The notes under the pieces are model-generated. The model saw only the letters and a program-made list of their open reading frames with translations. It was not told where the DNA came from and searched no databases. From positions 62,001 through 126,000 of the forward strand of contig NHBK01000009.1 in NCBI GenBank assembly GCA_002173095.1: DNA of 64,000 bases, written 5' to 3'. A program made the translations under genes and the position numbers. Positions 57,303 through 63,669 of the stretch are shown in pieces. Source of the stretch: Hyphomonadaceae bacterium TMED5. Its GTDB lineage: Bacteria; Pseudomonadota; Alphaproteobacteria; Caulobacterales; Hyphomonadaceae. Each line of letters opens with the position of its first letter. Positions within the stretch are counted from its first letter, which is position 1.

Positions 57303-58109
57303 TTATTCGGTCGGCATGATCCGGGCATAGTGGTCATAGGATTGAGGCAGTTCATAATCTGTCTTCAATCCGCCTATGGACTCGGCTGTTTCTTCGGACA
57401 GATCACACGCGTTTTCCGTGTTGTAATAGTCAAACGATCGGCAGACGAAGTCCGTGGCACTAAGACAGGCGCGCATACAGTCATATCGTGACGCATAGAA
57501 CATCCGGGAGTTGTTATAACCTGAGATAGCTGCATCCTCAGTACGCGCAAATTGCGCTGACAAAGCGCGTTCATCGCTCGTTTTTTGCCAATACCAGCCG
57601 CCAGAGCCAATAGCGGCCGTCGCTATGACGACGGCGATCAGCAAGACGGTGTGTTTCATCACCCATTCCCGGACCGGTGCAGGTGACGGGGCGCGGACGG
57701 TTTTCACTGATACATCGCCGACAAACCGCAAGCCGACATTGGGAATGGTTTTGATCAGGCGTTGTTCACTGCCATTGTCGCCAATAATCGTACGGGCTGA
57801 TCTGAGCCGCGTTGTCAGCGAGGCTTCGGAAACCTGCCGACCTTCCCAGACAACCGCATTGATTTCATCGCGCGGGACGATCCGGTCATGGTGTTCAACG
57901 AGCAGTGAGATGAGGCGCAGCACTTGCGGTTCAATGTGAACTGTTTCGCCATTCTCAAGTAGCGTCATACGTGCAGGGTCCAGTTCGAATCGGTCGAATT
58001 GGAAAACCGTCCGTTCTGCCGAAGATGCTTGTGTGAAAGCCACGAATTCCCGCCCCGAAACCGTCTGGCTGAATGCCTGCCCCGTAAGTTGAATTTTCTT
58101 ATCCTTCAT
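57303..58109 (-). CDS. ToxR/CadC-like membrane regulator with a PAN/apple-like periplasmic domain
   Basis: 268 residues, three parts. Residues 34-132: an OmpR-type winged helix (VFQFDRFELDPARMTLLENG, VLRLISLLVEHHDRIVPRDE, TIPNVGLRFVGDV). Residues 152-174: one membrane helix. Residues 190-265: a domain with Cys211, Cys215, Cys223 and Cys235 in the order YDCMRACL, FVCRSFDYYN, ENACDLSEE, which matches the PAN/apple pattern Cx3C-Cx2FxY-CxL. Thus DNA binding inside and a possible protein- or carbohydrate-binding sensor outside. It is divergent from the modular secreted protein genes; ATG 58109 is the start. The combination is unusual. Confidence 0.85.
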   Translation of the reverse strand: MKDKKIQLTGQAFSQTVSGREFVAFTQASSAERTVFQFDRFELDPARMTLLENGETVHIEPQVLRLISLLVEHHDRIVPRDEINAVVWEGRQVSEASLTTRLRSARTIIGDNGSEQRLIKTIPNVGLRFVGDVSVKTVRAPSPAPVREWVMKHTVLLIAVVIATAAIGSGGWYWQKTSDERALSAQFARTEDAAISGYNNSRMFYASRYDCMRACLSATDFVCRSFDYYNTENACDLSEETAESIGGLKTDYELPQSYDHYARIMPTE

Positions 58110-58142
58110 TCCGGCGCAGATGTAACCCTCTGAAAACAGTGA

Positions 58143-58171
58143 TCTTCATATTTCTTCATCTACATCTTCAG
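58143..58171. promoter_or_regulatory. Three phased CTTCA direct repeats in the divergent promoter region
   Basis: TCTTCAT at 58143-58149 and 58153-58159 and TCTTCAG at 58165-58171 are direct repeats with 10- and 12-base periods, which puts them near one helical turn apart on the same face. They lie 34 bases upstream of the regulator start and about 77 bases before the first secreted-protein start. OmpR-type winged helices bind such direct repeats; the link is inferred. Confidence 0.45.
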
Positions 58172-58247
58172 ATTTCTCTATTTGTCGGGATTTCGCCCAA
58201 ATGACAGGCTTCGCGCACTTGTGTGTGGGATGCGGGCGGAGGATGAT

Positions 58248-60785
58248 TTGCGACATTTATTCAGTTTAACGGCGACGATCATTTCGGGAGCGATGATCTT
58301 AGGGGCAGGTTCGGCGCAGGCTCAAGGAGCGCCGGCAGATGAGATCAGTCCATCCGTTCCGGATGTGCTGTATCAGATGAGGCAGATGCAGGGACGGGAA
58401 TCGACCCTCGTGGATACTGAGATCGATGGCCTGGTCAGTGGATACAATGATGGCATGGGCGGGGGCGACCACGTTCAGGGCATAACCATGACGGCTTCGG
58501 GCCGCATTGTCCTGACGATATCGCGCCAGGAGGACGACCCTTCGACTGAGTGTGAGGGTCTTATCGCTTACTCAAGCGTATTTGATCAAGACAATGCGGA
58601 CGATGAGCTGGAGTGGTTCTTTTATTGCCCGTCGAGTGTGGACCCGCCGCAAACCAATCCACGCTCTAATCCTCCGCCTCGTTCACCAAGTCCGGAACCA
58701 CATCCAAGCAATGTGCAGGCGACGGGTGAGGTGATTATTGTCGGTACTGATGAGGGCTCGAGTTTTTATCACATCGCGGGTGATAACAATGTTGAGTATC
58801 TTGAACACCTCGATATGAGCTGGGCTGCGGGTCGAGGCCGTGATGCATCCGGCGTGGTTTACAACCAGGCGGAACGTAGATTCTACGCTATCAATGCGCC
58901 CGGAACGATCAGGCCGGGCATTGTAAGCGCGCAACTCTGCCGGACAGATCCGGGCGAATCGCTGCTCGATCCGGGTACGAGGTTTCGGGATTGCACGGTG
59001 TTTCATGTTTCCATTTCTGGTCAGGGATCGAACCTGATCATGCAGGATGATGGCAGGATGTTTCTTGTGTCTGCATATTCAACGCATGACATGTGGCCTG
59101 ACGATATGGTCGCAAGCGAAATCATCAAAGGTGGCTTGTATGGCACGACCTGTGGGAATGAAAGCGCTGCCGCGCTTGTCGCAGGCTGGGATATGACAAC
59201 CCTGTATGAAGACATACTCCACGTGTCGGAAATTCATTATCAGAATTTCTCGCGGGCTTCAGCGACACTCCAATACGAAGAGAATATCGGACGAACACAG
59301 CGTAACCAGTTGTGTGTGCATCTGCGCCCGTCATTCAGATTTTCAGGCGGCGCAGCAGTTTTGAATGATGGTGGTCTCATTGGTTTGTGGTCGGGGCGAC
59401 AGAACCCTCCGGTCGTGACGCAGACCGATGACTTCGAATTCGCATTTCAGATGTTACCAAATGCCGGGCAGCAGTCTCTCGATTTTGCCGTGGCGATCGA
59501 CTGTGCCACCGATGGGATTGATAATGAAGGCACAGGCAGCACCATCACGGCCACCTTCTATGACCGGAACTGGACGCAGCTTGGTCAGGCCAGCCGTAAT
59601 GATATTTCCAACAGCACATGCGTCTTCAACAATCCTACGTTTGAAACGACCCTTAATGCTGAAGCGGAATATGTGAAGATCAGCACGGATGGGGCCGATG
59701 CGTTCATGGTCGACCGCATTCTTATGTACCGTCAGGGCGTTGAGATTTCTGTCTTCGGTGCAAACAATGACCGCGGCTGGTGTCTGTCGACCGACGAGGC
59801 AGATGGACGCGGTAGCTGGGAATACGCAGCGGGCGGTATCTGTACATCAGAGCACACCTGGAGCTATTCGAATCTGCCGGTTGATAATCCGCGTGACCGG
59901 ATCGTCGCTCAGAATGGTATCAGAACGACGCAGCGTTATTCCGTTGGCATCGACTGTTCAACTGAGAACATTACGAATGACTGGACGAGTGCCACCATCA
60001 CGGCGACCTTCTATGACAGCAACTGGCGGCAGATCGGTAGTGCTAGCCGCAATGATCTGCATGAGAGAGCCTGCACCTGGACCACCCCGGAAATCGAAGC
60101 CACGACGAATGGTGATGCTGAATATGTGACGATCAGTACCGATGGCGGCGATGCCTTCATGATCGACCGTATTTTCCTCTATCGTAACGGTGATGAAGTT
60201 GCGTTATTCGGGGCGAATAATGACCGTGGCTGGTGTCTGTCGACTCAATCCGGCGACGGTGAGGGCGCATGGGCTTATGCGGCGGATGGCGTGTGCACAT
60301 CTGAGCACACCTGGAGCTATTCAAACCTGCCAGTTGATAACCCGCGTGACCGTATTATCGCGCAGCGTGGCAATACGACGACCCATCGCTATTCGCTGGA
60401 TATCGACTGCGACGTCGATGGTATTGAAAACGAAGGTACGGGCAGCCGTCTGACAGCTGTGTATCTCGACTCAAGCCGCAATGAGATCGGGCGGAGTTCT
60501 TTCCAGGAAGATACGAACGCTCCAATTCTGCCGATTTGCCGCGATATGGAGTGGGATACGATCGTCACCGGTACGCCGCGCTATCTTCAGATCCATACGG
60601 CTGGCAGTGATGGCGCAATGCTCGACCAGATCTTCGTCGAACGCGATGGCGTTGAGGTGAAGGTACTGGGTGGCAGCAACGACTCCGGTTGGTGCCTCTC
60701 CACACAGGAGAGCGATGCGCATGGCAGCTGGCAGGGACATGCCTACGAGAACACATGCCGGACCTATTGGGAATTTGACCTTTAG
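58248..60785 (+). CDS. Secreted modular protein A: shared N-terminal domain plus three GWCLS modules
   Basis: 845 residues, unknown family. A signal peptide ends at GAGSAQA. Residues about 25-405 form a domain shared with protein B (VQGITMTASGRIVLTISR, VQATGEVIIVGTDEGSS, SGQGSNLIMQDDGRMFLVSA, DILHVSEIHYQNF), perhaps beta-propeller-like. Three modules of about 151 residues then repeat, each with VxIDC, a mid Cys, a D-A-F-M-x-D-R-I-like core, GWCLST and a last Cys; two end CTSEHTWSYSNLPVDNP. TTG 58248 is chosen over ATG 58230 because CGGAGGA lies five bases upstream of the TTG and protein B has CGGAGG likewise. A terminator follows. Confidence 0.82.
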   Translation: MRHLFSLTATIISGAMILGAGSAQAQGAPADEISPSVPDVLYQMRQMQGRESTLVDTEIDGLVSGYNDGMGGGDHVQGITMTASGRIVLTISRQEDDPSTECEGLIAYSSVFDQDNADDELEWFFYCPSSVDPPQTNPRSNPPPRSPSPEPHPSNVQATGEVIIVGTDEGSSFYHIAGDNNVEYLEHLDMSWAAGRGRDASGVVYNQAERRFYAINAPGTIRPGIVSAQLCRTDPGESLLDPGTRFRDCTVFHVSISGQGSNLIMQDDGRMFLVSAYSTHDMWPDDMVASEIIKGGLYGTTCGNESAAALVAGWDMTTLYEDILHVSEIHYQNFSRASATLQYEENIGRTQRNQLCVHLRPSFRFSGGAAVLNDGGLIGLWSGRQNPPVVTQTDDFEFAFQMLPNAGQQSLDFAVAIDCATDGIDNEGTGSTITATFYDRNWTQLGQASRNDISNSTCVFNNPTFETTLNAEAEYVKISTDGADAFMVDRILMYRQGVEISVFGANNDRGWCLSTDEADGRGSWEYAAGGICTSEHTWSYSNLPVDNPRDRIVAQNGIRTTQRYSVGIDCSTENITNDWTSATITATFYDSNWRQIGSASRNDLHERACTWTTPEIEATTNGDAEYVTISTDGGDAFMIDRIFLYRNGDEVALFGANNDRGWCLSTQSGDGEGAWAYAADGVCTSEHTWSYSNLPVDNPRDRIIAQRGNTTTHRYSLDIDCDVDGIENEGTGSRLTAVYLDSSRNEIGRSSFQEDTNAPILPICRDMEWDTIVTGTPRYLQIHTAGSDGAMLDQIFVERDGVEVKVLGGSNDSGWCLSTQESDAHGSWQGHAYENTCRTYWEFDL
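59482..60782 (+). repeat. Three tandem ~452-bp repeats within the modular protein A gene
   Basis: Module starts at about 59482, 59935 and 60387 (period 452-453 bases). The first two units are the most similar, including near-identical 60-base ends at about 59860-59920 and 60310-60370. The third unit is more like the last module of protein C: 30 identical bases are shared between 60522-60551 and 63373-63402. Confidence 0.85.
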
Positions 60786-60793
60786 TTCTGGCT

Positions 60794-60837
60794 GACACCA
60801 GCTGGTACGCCCTTATGCCGGCTGGTGTCCTTTTTTT
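60794..60837 (+). terminator. Rho-independent terminator between proteins A and B
   Basis: GACACCAGC (60794-60802) and GCTGGTGTC (60821-60829), a perfect 9-bp stem, then seven T. It lies 9 bases after the stop of gene A and about 30 before gene B, so gene A is probably transcribed in excess of genes B and C or has its own end. Confidence 0.85.
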
Positions 60838-60869
60838 GCGAATGCGTGGGGACGCACGCGGAGGACCCA

Positions 60870-62513
60870 ATGAAATCACCTGTGAAACACCTGATGGCGG
60901 CTTGCGCGACATTCCTCGTGCCTGCAATCGGCGCGAGCTCTGCACACGCGCTTGGCCCTGATGAGTACACGCCGCCTGCAGAAAACCTGCTTCAGCAAGT
61001 TCAGTCTATGACCGGTACGCAGGCTAATCTGATACGAACCAGCCTAGAAAACCTGACCCGACAAGACGGGGGGCTGATCGGGCCGGATGATCGGGTGCGC
61101 GGCATTACAATGACCGCAACAGGGCGGATCGTCCTGAGCATTTCACGCGAGTTGGCTCCCAATGCGAGCGCCGATGAATGTCGCGGCCTGTTGGTGTTTT
61201 CGGACACGATCGACGCGCAGACATCGCTGGAAGAGCTGACTTGGACGGCCTTCTGCCCAACTGCCATTGGCATGCCGAGCTGGGAGGCCGGAAGCATTCA
61301 GGCGACTGGCGAGGTGGTTGCTGTCGGCACGCGCGGCATGACGCTGTTCTATAAAATTGAGCGGAGTGACTACGTCACGCATTTTGATCACCTCACCCTT
61401 TATCATGAGATGTCTGGCGAGCGGAATGTCGAAACCAGCTATTCTGCAGGCCTTGTTTTCAATGACAGGGACAACCGTTTTTACACAATCAGCGCTGTGG
61501 GCTGGGCTGAATCGCGCACTGTGACCGCACGTCTTTGCCGGACGCAGGCGACCGATGTTCTGGCCTACCATGCGACGCGTTTTGGCGAATGCACGGAATT
61601 TGAGGCCCCGGTTTCTGGTCAGGGAGCGAACCTGATCATGGACTTTGATGGCAAGATGTATCTGGTTTCAGCGTTTTCTGGTGATGGATTCTATCCGGAC
61701 CTGTCAGGCCGGACGCCAACCGGGCGACAAAGCGTTTATGCCGCTTCATGTGTTTTGCCGCCGCGCGAATGGACCGCTCAGGATGATGCAACCGTTCAAA
61801 TGCGCCCTCAGGACATGTTCGAGGACATTCTGCGCGTGTCGGAAATCGAATACTCCGATTTTGATAACACCTCAGCCCGCGATGTGTTTACCGCAGATAT
61901 TGGTAGTGCGGAGGAAGACGATATCTGCGTTCATGAGCGCCCTTCCTTCCGTCATGCTGGTGGCGTCTCGCTTCAGACGAATGGCAACATGCTCGGGCTA
62001 TGGGCGGGTAGCGGTGTCGATGAGGATGGCATGTTTGAGTTCGCGGTCCAGCCGCTCAGCGTGTCGCGGCCAGATGAGCTCAACTATACGGTGGGATTTG
62101 ATTGTTCTGTTGGTGATCTGACCAACGAATGGACGACCAGCACGCTTACCGCCACGCTCTACAGCCTGTATTGGGAAGAAGTCGGGCAGGCCAGTATTTC
62201 AGGTCCGGGGCAATATGCCTGCGATATGGGTGAGCCGACGATTGACGTCGCGGCGAGCGCCCGCGCTGACCATGTGAAGATCACGACCAGCGGTGATGAC
62301 GGCTTCATGATTGACCGGGTTTCACTTTATAGCGGCGGCGATGAAATCGCCGAATTTCTTGCAGGCGACGGGCGCGGCTGGTGCCTGTCGACCGATCCGG
62401 GTGATGCCAACGGACCATGGCTGGCGGCCGCTCTGACGGGCTGTGAGACCGAGCATGTCTGGAGCCTTTCAGACCTGCGGGTACAGCAGATCAATTCTCA
62501 ATTTCAGGAATAG
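60870..62513 (+). CDS. Secreted modular protein B: shared N-terminal domain plus one GWCLS module
   Basis: 547 residues, paralogue of protein A. The signal peptide ends at SSAHA. Its N-terminal 400 residues align with A: VRGITMTATGRIVLSISREL, IQATGEVVAVGTRG, SGQGANLIMDFDGKMYLVSA, LRVSEIEYSDFDN. The C-terminal module has FDCSVGDLTNEW, YACDMGEP, DDGFMIDRVSLY, GRGWCLSTDPGDANGPW and a last Cys, and ends with a short tail. ATG 60870 lies behind GCGGAGG. It is unknown as a family; role is inferred to be surface or secreted. Confidence 0.82.
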   Translation: MKSPVKHLMAACATFLVPAIGASSAHALGPDEYTPPAENLLQQVQSMTGTQANLIRTSLENLTRQDGGLIGPDDRVRGITMTATGRIVLSISRELAPNASADECRGLLVFSDTIDAQTSLEELTWTAFCPTAIGMPSWEAGSIQATGEVVAVGTRGMTLFYKIERSDYVTHFDHLTLYHEMSGERNVETSYSAGLVFNDRDNRFYTISAVGWAESRTVTARLCRTQATDVLAYHATRFGECTEFEAPVSGQGANLIMDFDGKMYLVSAFSGDGFYPDLSGRTPTGRQSVYAASCVLPPREWTAQDDATVQMRPQDMFEDILRVSEIEYSDFDNTSARDVFTADIGSAEEDDICVHERPSFRHAGGVSLQTNGNMLGLWAGSGVDEDGMFEFAVQPLSVSRPDELNYTVGFDCSVGDLTNEWTTSTLTATLYSLYWEEVGQASISGPGQYACDMGEPTIDVAASARADHVKITTSGDDGFMIDRVSLYSGGDEIAEFLAGDGRGWCLSTDPGDANGPWLAAALTGCETEHVWSLSDLRVQQINSQFQE

Positions 62514-62574
62514 GCCGCCCGTCAGGGGGGCGAAAATGCTCGCGATGTGTGTGAGGACGCAAGGAAGACGTTAA

Positions 62575-63639
62575 ATGAGAGACGTATTGAAAACACTGGC
62601 CGTGCTGGCCTCATGTTCTGCGGTGACGCTCAGCTCGGGCTCCGCATTTGCGCAGTCCAATCGCAAGCCGCCCGTACCCCGTGAAGATAATCTGGTACGG
62701 GATCGAACACAGTATAATGACCAGTACACCGGTAGCGACTTTGGGATAATCTCGGGTGAAATGATCGAAGCTTGGGATCCAGCTGCCCCAATTTTACGGC
62801 CGGGTCATTATCGGCTTCTCATGGATTGCGATGTAGCCGGTGTAGAAAACGAGGGTACCTCAGGATTTTATTTTCAGGTCTGGACTTCGGACCAATCGAC
62901 CGAACTTTATACGGATGGGAGGCGAGTTTCAGATGAACGTTGCAACGCTGACGAAGTTCAGTACGATTTTCAGGCATCCATGCACCCCGGGGCCATAACG
63001 TTCGAAGCCGATTCAAATGACGCACTCCTGATCGATCGAGTGAGATTAATAGACTCTCAGGGGGTTTTTCTGGACTGGGGTGAAGACGACGACAAAGGAT
63101 GGTGCCTCTCCCTAGACGAGGAAGATGGAAGTCGCTCCTGGCGATTTGCCGCTGATGATACTTGTAGCCCATACCTTACTTTAGGAGGGCACAACGCAAG
63201 CACCGTAGTCCAAGCCGGTCGAACCGATACCGTCTATCGGTATTCAGTAGATATTGATTGCGATGTTACGGGCGTTGAGAATGAGGGCACAGGGGACCAG
63301 CTGATGATCAGCTATCTGAACGCGCAGGGCGAGACGCTCGGCATGTCCTGGTTCCATGAAGATACCAATGCGCCAATTCTGCCGATTTGCCGCGATATGG
63401 AGGAAGAAACGCTCGTTCGGGGCATTCCTACGACGCTTGAGATCCGCACAACCGGCTCTGACGCGGCGCTGCTCGACCAGATTTACGTCTATCGCGATGG
63501 TGTTGAAGTAAAAGTTCTTGGCGAGAGCAACTCATCTGGCTGGTGCCTCTCAACTGATCGGGGTGATGCCAATGGCAATTGGCGCGGCCATATATTTCAG
63601 GATCAGTGTAGTACGATTTGGCAGTTTGATCTCCGGTAA
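62575..63639 (+). CDS. Secreted modular protein C: two GWCLS modules
   Basis: 354 residues with a signal peptide ending SGSAFAQS. No N-terminal domain like that of A and B, but two modules: first MDCDVAGVENEGTSG, DDKGWCLSLDEEDGSRSW; second IDCDVTGVENEGTGDQL, APILPICRDMEEE, GSDAALLDQIYVYRDG, SSGWCLSTDRGDANGNW. The second is strikingly close to module 3 of protein A. ATG 62575 follows AAGGAAG. The three genes are arranged A-B-C; the B-C gap (61 bases) has a small GC hairpin but no T-run. Confidence 0.82.
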   Translation: MRDVLKTLAVLASCSAVTLSSGSAFAQSNRKPPVPREDNLVRDRTQYNDQYTGSDFGIISGEMIEAWDPAAPILRPGHYRLLMDCDVAGVENEGTSGFYFQVWTSDQSTELYTDGRRVSDERCNADEVQYDFQASMHPGAITFEADSNDALLIDRVRLIDSQGVFLDWGEDDDKGWCLSLDEEDGSRSWRFAADDTCSPYLTLGGHNASTVVQAGRTDTVYRYSVDIDCDVTGVENEGTGDQLMISYLNAQGETLGMSWFHEDTNAPILPICRDMEEETLVRGIPTTLEIRTTGSDAALLDQIYVYRDGVEVKVLGESNSSGWCLSTDRGDANGNWRGHIFQDQCSTIWQFDLR

Positions 63640-63669
63640 TCGCCCAATCTTACCGTAGATCCCCCATGG

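Follow-up and report, generated by a model that had tools for sequence, protein, structure and literature searches.

Within the window, the 64,000-nucleotide stretch of contig NHBK01000009.1 analysed here (positions 62,001 to 126,000 of the forward strand, GenBank assembly GCA_002173095.1, Hyphomonadaceae bacterium TMED5), the gene of a ToxR-like regulator with a PAN outer domain is placed divergently from three consecutive genes, here named A, B and C, that code for secreted proteins built from a repeated module. The genome belongs to the genus Ponticaulis, as do those of Ponticaulis sp. SP186 (G085) and P. koreensis DSM 19734 (G080). The arrangement is a small, patchily distributed cassette in which the regulator is accompanied by one to three secreted repeat proteins. 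In window coordinates, its features are:

57303-58109, minus strand: ToxR-like regulator; winged helix-turn-helix (wHTH) at residues ~34-133, transmembrane segment (TM) at ~149-174 and outer PAN_1 domain at ~187-263, assigned from Pfam, PDB, hydropathy and alignments
58144-58181, plus strand: four direct half-sites, CTTCAT ATTT CTTCAT CTACAT CTTCAG ATTT CTCTAT, candidate regulator-binding site
58248-60785, plus strand (longest open reading frame, ORF, from 58182): gene A; signal peptide, propeller-like N-terminal domain (N-domain) and three modules; probable start indicated by the ribosome-binding site (RBS) and the P. koreensis alignment
59484-59891, plus strand: module A1
59928-60344, plus strand: module A2
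60384-60782, plus strand: module A3, a variant with an ILPICRDME insert
60794-60829, plus strand: strong intrinsic terminator dividing A from B, with a stem of 14 bp and T7, conserved in SP186
60870-62513, plus strand (longest ORF from 60825): gene B; signal peptide, propeller-like N-domain and one module
62082-62492, plus strand: module B1
62575-63639, plus strand: gene C; signal peptide and two modules, without N-domain
62803-63189, plus strand: module C1
63235-63636, plus strand: module C2
63668-63697, plus strand: terminator-like hairpin after C, with a weak T-run

The regulator (268 amino acids) is, by its predicted topology, an OmpR/ToxR-type wHTH protein with one TM and a C-terminal PAN domain, and without a receiver domain, for which the Pfam and NCBIfam scan gave no match. 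Residues 54-129 match Trans_reg_C (PF00486, E 7e-11, above the Pfam cut-off) and residues 187-250 match PAN_1 (PF00024, E 3e-10, 40.2 bits versus a cut-off of 21.4). The nearest solved structures for the wHTH in a PDB search were ToxR (E 5e-7), the response regulator PhoB and CadC. Hydropathy locates a single hydrophobic stretch between the wHTH and the PAN domain, as it does in the regulator homologues. These matches bear out the winged-helix, membrane and four-Cys PAN-like protein described in an earlier examination of the letters alone (the sequence-only reading). The four Cys of the PAN domain are invariant across eight aligned PAN sequences, and among Ponticaulis regulators this domain is the most conserved part, with 82-84% identity versus 70% in the wHTH and 26-29% in the TM and linker. 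The fusion partners of wHTH domains are highly diverse in Hyphomonadaceae; in G012 (L059:4227-7273), for example, two back-to-back ToxR-type wHTH proteins are fused to an alpha/beta-hydrolase-like domain and to a TPR-like region.

The true start of A is probably TTG 58248, located after GGAGGA and aligned with the P. koreensis ATG, and that of B is probably ATG 60870, as indicated by an RBS-like GGAGGA and by the homologues. The N-termini of A, B and C, judged by eye, are signal-peptide-like and of the Sec type. A and B can be aligned over ~550 amino acids with ~37-40% identity, and have in common an N-domain of ~380 residues. The modules are six, three in A, one in B and two in C, so that the composition given by the sequence-only reading is confirmed in all its parts; the DNA copies are 60-87% identical. 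Alignment of 19 copies from the window and its relatives revealed eleven invariant positions (D-C, T, D, D, W-C-x-S, D, W, C). No above-cut-off Pfam or NCBIfam match, catalytic families included, was obtained for A, B or C; the subthreshold Pfam matches fn2, Big_7, Zot and InlK_D2 were dismissed as chance.

The half-sites of the divergent promoter start at 58144 (CTTCAT), 58154 (CTTCAT), 58166 (CTTCAG) and 58176 (CTCTAT), which gives a 10/12/10-bp spacing. Shuffling of the 120-bp region produced an equally clustered 6-mer in 0.6% of cases; because the repeats are also conserved across genera they are far beyond chance, and the phased direct repeats claimed earlier are thereby substantiated. 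In each of the five Hyphomonadaceae genomes with the regulator, the box CTTCATATTTCTTCA is conserved upstream of the regulator gene and is almost absent elsewhere. The pattern TCTTCATATTTCTTCA, with a second copy 22 bp further, is kept in SP186 and degenerate in P. koreensis; its first copy is also present in Henriciella mobilis M65 (G010) and before the solitary regulator of a further Ponticaulis genome (G084), and this retention of the box without a secreted gene fits autoregulation. One or two exact copies of the core CTTCANNTTTCTKCA were counted per genome, and none in the reversed control; one copy lies upstream of each regulator (5 genomes). Exact boxes elsewhere in G000, G084, G081 and G007 define no regulon, and the second G084 box is inside the ORF of an APC-type transporter. 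The binding sites of mycobacterial PhoP are 7-bp direct repeats spaced by 4 bp, and those of KdpE are direct repeats of 6 bp (PMC4832192, PMC3264566). Since OmpR/PhoB-type winged helices of this kind bind tandem 6-7-bp repeats, positions 58144-58181 are a plausible candidate site for the regulator, spanning both its own promoter and that of A.

The terminator between A and B (-25.5 kcal/mol, z -4.7) is kept in SP186 with compensatory changes in the stem. Its presence implies that A, B and C do not form one simple operon. The distance from it to the RBS of B is only ~30 bp, so that expression of B and C probably depends either on read-through past the terminator or on an internal promoter within A. 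The terminator suggests that A would be expressed above B and C.

Intact modular genes were found in four of the 105 genomes of the GTDB family (the window's, SP186, P. koreensis and H. mobilis), and each of the four has the PAN regulator directly beside the modular gene and divergent from it. When 85k species genomes were scanned, the same divergent pair turned up in a Robiginitomaculum metagenome-assembled genome; hence, the pair is present in 5/5 examined genomes with an intact secreted gene, which represent three genera with differing flanks. In the Robiginitomaculum secreted gene an in-frame stop (L075:4942-4944) is located between the two modules, the second of which stays open in the same frame; the stop may reflect a real truncation or a fault of the assembly. 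The regulator-type PAN is found in five of the 105 family genomes, always in the regulator; besides, it is present in the Henriciella secreted protein and in a broken piece in G007. In Ponticaulis the cassette lies between purH, upstream in the window and with its 3' end convergent with the regulator, and the prephenate dehydrogenase gene, downstream. In the sister Ponticaulis G081 the cassette is absent and the flanking genes are 73 bp apart, its purH being 92% identical to that of the window. The Henriciella and Robiginitomaculum cassettes have other neighbours, making three neighbourhoods in all. Decayed pieces of PAN or module in G007 (L096:7131-7328), G030 (L079:7935-8066) and G068 (L056:6342-6461) look like relics of lost cassettes, and suggest that loss has occurred as well. 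In other Ponticaulis genomes the gap from purH to the gene of prephenate dehydrogenase (L098:1722-5327, L099:1999-3366, L100:1234-2592) holds unrelated genes of exported-looking proteins, fibronectin-like or, in G082, caspase-like; the gap is possibly a variable site.

Beyond these cassettes, secreted single-module proteins stand alone in a member of Microscillaceae (L077:4015-4674) and in G358, of another family (L078:8174-8749), so that the module, judged from these copies, is a wider unnamed domain family. Picosynechococcus PCC 7117 has a secreted protein made only of an A/B-type N-domain (L076:7992-9251, 25% identity). Searches of viral contigs with the modules and PAN, and of plasmids with the P. 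koreensis secreted protein (tblastn), gave no match and revealed no such carriage; neither did a regulator search of the genome contigs for related loci, and a class-wide search of 385 genomes gave no homologue except in the own genome.

The secreted proteins of Henriciella and Robiginitomaculum consist of a signal peptide and a PAN domain followed by the N-domain and modules. Their PANs are 37-58% identical to those of the regulators and keep the four Cys and the motif GGLKT[DN]Y...YDHY. In a small PAN tree a split between secreted and regulator PANs has a support of 0.80 and speaks for an old pairing rather than for recent copying; however, one secreted PAN of G119, a genome of another family, groups unsupported among the regulator PANs, and the tree is weak. 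In G119 the regulator-type PAN is carried by two secreted proteins (L117:4287-7529 and L116:6063-6887); one of the G119 proteins has 1080 amino acids, carries two PANs at its C-terminal end and weakly matches PLAT (E 0.013). The combination of PAN with PLAT-like domains thus recurs there, with no regulator. The window PAN has the same four Cys as those of secreted PAN_1/apple proteins, as in G119, but differs in being fused to a DNA-binding membrane protein. The functional tie previously proposed between the regulator's PAN and the secreted proteins is strengthened by the presence, in two genera, of a secreted protein that itself bears a homologous PAN. This sharing suggests that the sensor and the secreted product may recognise a common target, or each other.

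A structural model of a single module was predicted with a pLDDT of 93.5. Its leading Foldseek matches in the PDB were PLAT proteins: lipoxygenases, lipoprotein and pancreatic lipases and clostridial alpha-toxins (for the predicted model, probability up to 1.00, best E 3e-3 with none below 0.001, TM up to 0.57). The module resembles PLAT/LH2 domains, such as those of lipoxygenases, lipases and the C-domain of clostridial alpha-toxin, in its predicted beta-sandwich, but differs from them by the absence of detectable sequence homology, by its invariant Cys and GWCLSTD..DG..SW motif, and by the lack of an attached recognised catalytic domain. The invariant Asp positions are the one observation that bears on the Ca2+-dependent lipid or membrane binding of PLAT domains. 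The modules are a sequence family outside Pfam and probably extend the PLAT superfamily. The claim of an undescribed module is weakened by the PLAT-like predicted fold, even though the sequence has no family match. The model of whole B is less confident (pLDDT 75.6); its N-domain is mostly beta, matches propellers of many kinds with low TM, and looks like a beta-propeller.

Taking as a basis the domain content, the divergent pairing, the conserved box, the terminator, the PAN sharing and the predicted PLAT-like fold, all of them read from sequence, we consider it fairly probable that the locus is a self-contained, surface-sensing ToxR-like one-component cassette, equipped with a PAN sensor and controlling itself as well as exported propeller/PLAT-like binding proteins. 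In the model, the regulator would be inserted in the inner membrane with the winged helix inside and the PAN domain in the periplasm. The PAN domain would recognise a ligand present at a surface or derived from one, probably a carbohydrate, a lipid or a protein, and the winged helix would then work cooperatively at the tandem array of four half-sites (58144-58181), controlling, in either sense, both its own expression and that of the divergent gene A. B and C would be expressed at a lower level by read-through past the terminator of A. The exported proteins, with a propeller-like platform and PLAT-like modules that may bear disulfides, would engage the same class of target as the PAN domain.

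Several observations weigh against this proposal. On the side of the secreted proteins, the Pfam PLAT family PF01477 gave no match in any of the 12 modules tested, alignment of the module with PLAT profiles was not significant (hhalign probability 4.5%), and the module HMM scored one bacterial PLAT inside the shuffle range. Because these direct profile tests were not significant, PLAT membership at the sequence level is not claimed, and the likeness is one of predicted fold alone; a PF01477 search of 299 genomes of the phylum gave no match even in the controls and is hence uninformative on absence. The propeller match of the N-domain comes from a model of moderate pLDDT, as given above, with a query-length TM of at most 0.28. 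On the side of the regulator, G084 has the PAN regulator and the box without a modular gene, which indicates that the regulator may do something else, and in Robiginitomaculum the promoter has two CTTCAT 20 bp apart and a box only partly conserved. The link that had been proposed between regulator and secreted genes stands in that the regulator lies beside the intact modular genes of all four of the 105 Hyphomonadaceae genomes that have them, and of the Robiginitomaculum genome, divergent and with a conserved box; it does not extend to G084, nor to other bacteria, where single modules or the N-domain occur alone.

Sharing of the PAN domain would equally be expected if the regulator sensed the product, its PAN binding the secreted protein during transit through the periplasm, as feedback or as a co-component-like receptor. 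The contact would be PAN-PAN in Henriciella and Robiginitomaculum, where the two proteins carry homologous PANs, and would involve the module or the propeller in Ponticaulis. Regulator and secreted gene are constant neighbours, and VtrA/VtrC and ToxR/ToxS offer a precedent of regulators completed by a neighbouring periplasmic partner (PMC9214523). However, A, B and C of Ponticaulis lack a PAN, the analysis gave no sign of PAN-PAN contact, G084 keeps the regulator without a partner, and a common external ligand explains the PAN sharing equally well; although the evidence on sharing fits both, we regard product sensing as rather unlikely. A further possibility is likewise rather unlikely: the regulator and the secreted protein that it controls would share a PAN, and the exported copy would either compete with the membrane-bound one or form a bridge to it in a self-limiting surface-sensing circuit, from which Ponticaulis would have lost the exported PAN while expanding the PLAT-like modules.

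A common role of PLAT domains is to direct lipases, lipoxygenases and phospholipases to membranes. The module fold matches include PLAT domains of lipases and lipoxygenases, and GH43 and the propeller of a lactonizing enzyme are among those of the N-domain; the secreted proteins could accordingly be enzymes or effectors, with a lyase or hydrolase propeller and lipid- or matrix-targeting modules, the regulator sensing the substrate or product. This is somewhat less likely still, given the propeller matches of all functions at low TM, the absence of catalytic families in the Pfam and NCBIfam scans, and a C protein made only of modules. That the regulator serves other genes and merely adjoins the secreted ones, as the solitary G084 regulator and the lone modules or N-domain of unrelated lineages might indicate, is very improbable in view of a divergent pair at three unrelated sites, a common box, a common PAN and a clean joint absence in G081.

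The one-component cassette with a PAN sensor that we favour shares with the ToxR-like regulators CadC, ToxR, TcpP and PsaE the OmpR-type wHTH, the single TM, the extracytoplasmic sensor and the lack of a receiver, but its sensor is a PAN instead of the alpha/beta domain of the CadC/ToxR type. Like the co-component systems VtrA/VtrC and ToxR/ToxS, it is a fast-evolving cassette of a membrane-tethered transcription factor and an adjoining exported protein; the partner in those systems is lipocalin-like, periplasmic and encoded beside, usually overlapping, the regulator gene (PMC9214523), whereas the window partners are divergent, larger, propeller/PLAT-like and provided with signal peptides. Downstream of the regulator lies the convergent purH, and the fold matches of the partners are not lipocalins. 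Searches of the open-access literature, most subscription papers being outside this scope, yielded no account of a PAN-ToxR regulator or of the cassette. The sequence-only reading knew of no such system, which holds for the combination, undescribed in the literature searched, but not for its parts, which are known.

The PAN domain has mostly been studied in eukaryotic secreted and receptor proteins. The cassette would add it to the sensors of ToxR-like one-component switches, together with a conserved candidate operator and a defined set of secreted putative targets. With PAN shared between regulator and secreted protein, it would become possible to ask directly if the ligand bound by an exported protein is also the one sensed by the bacterium.

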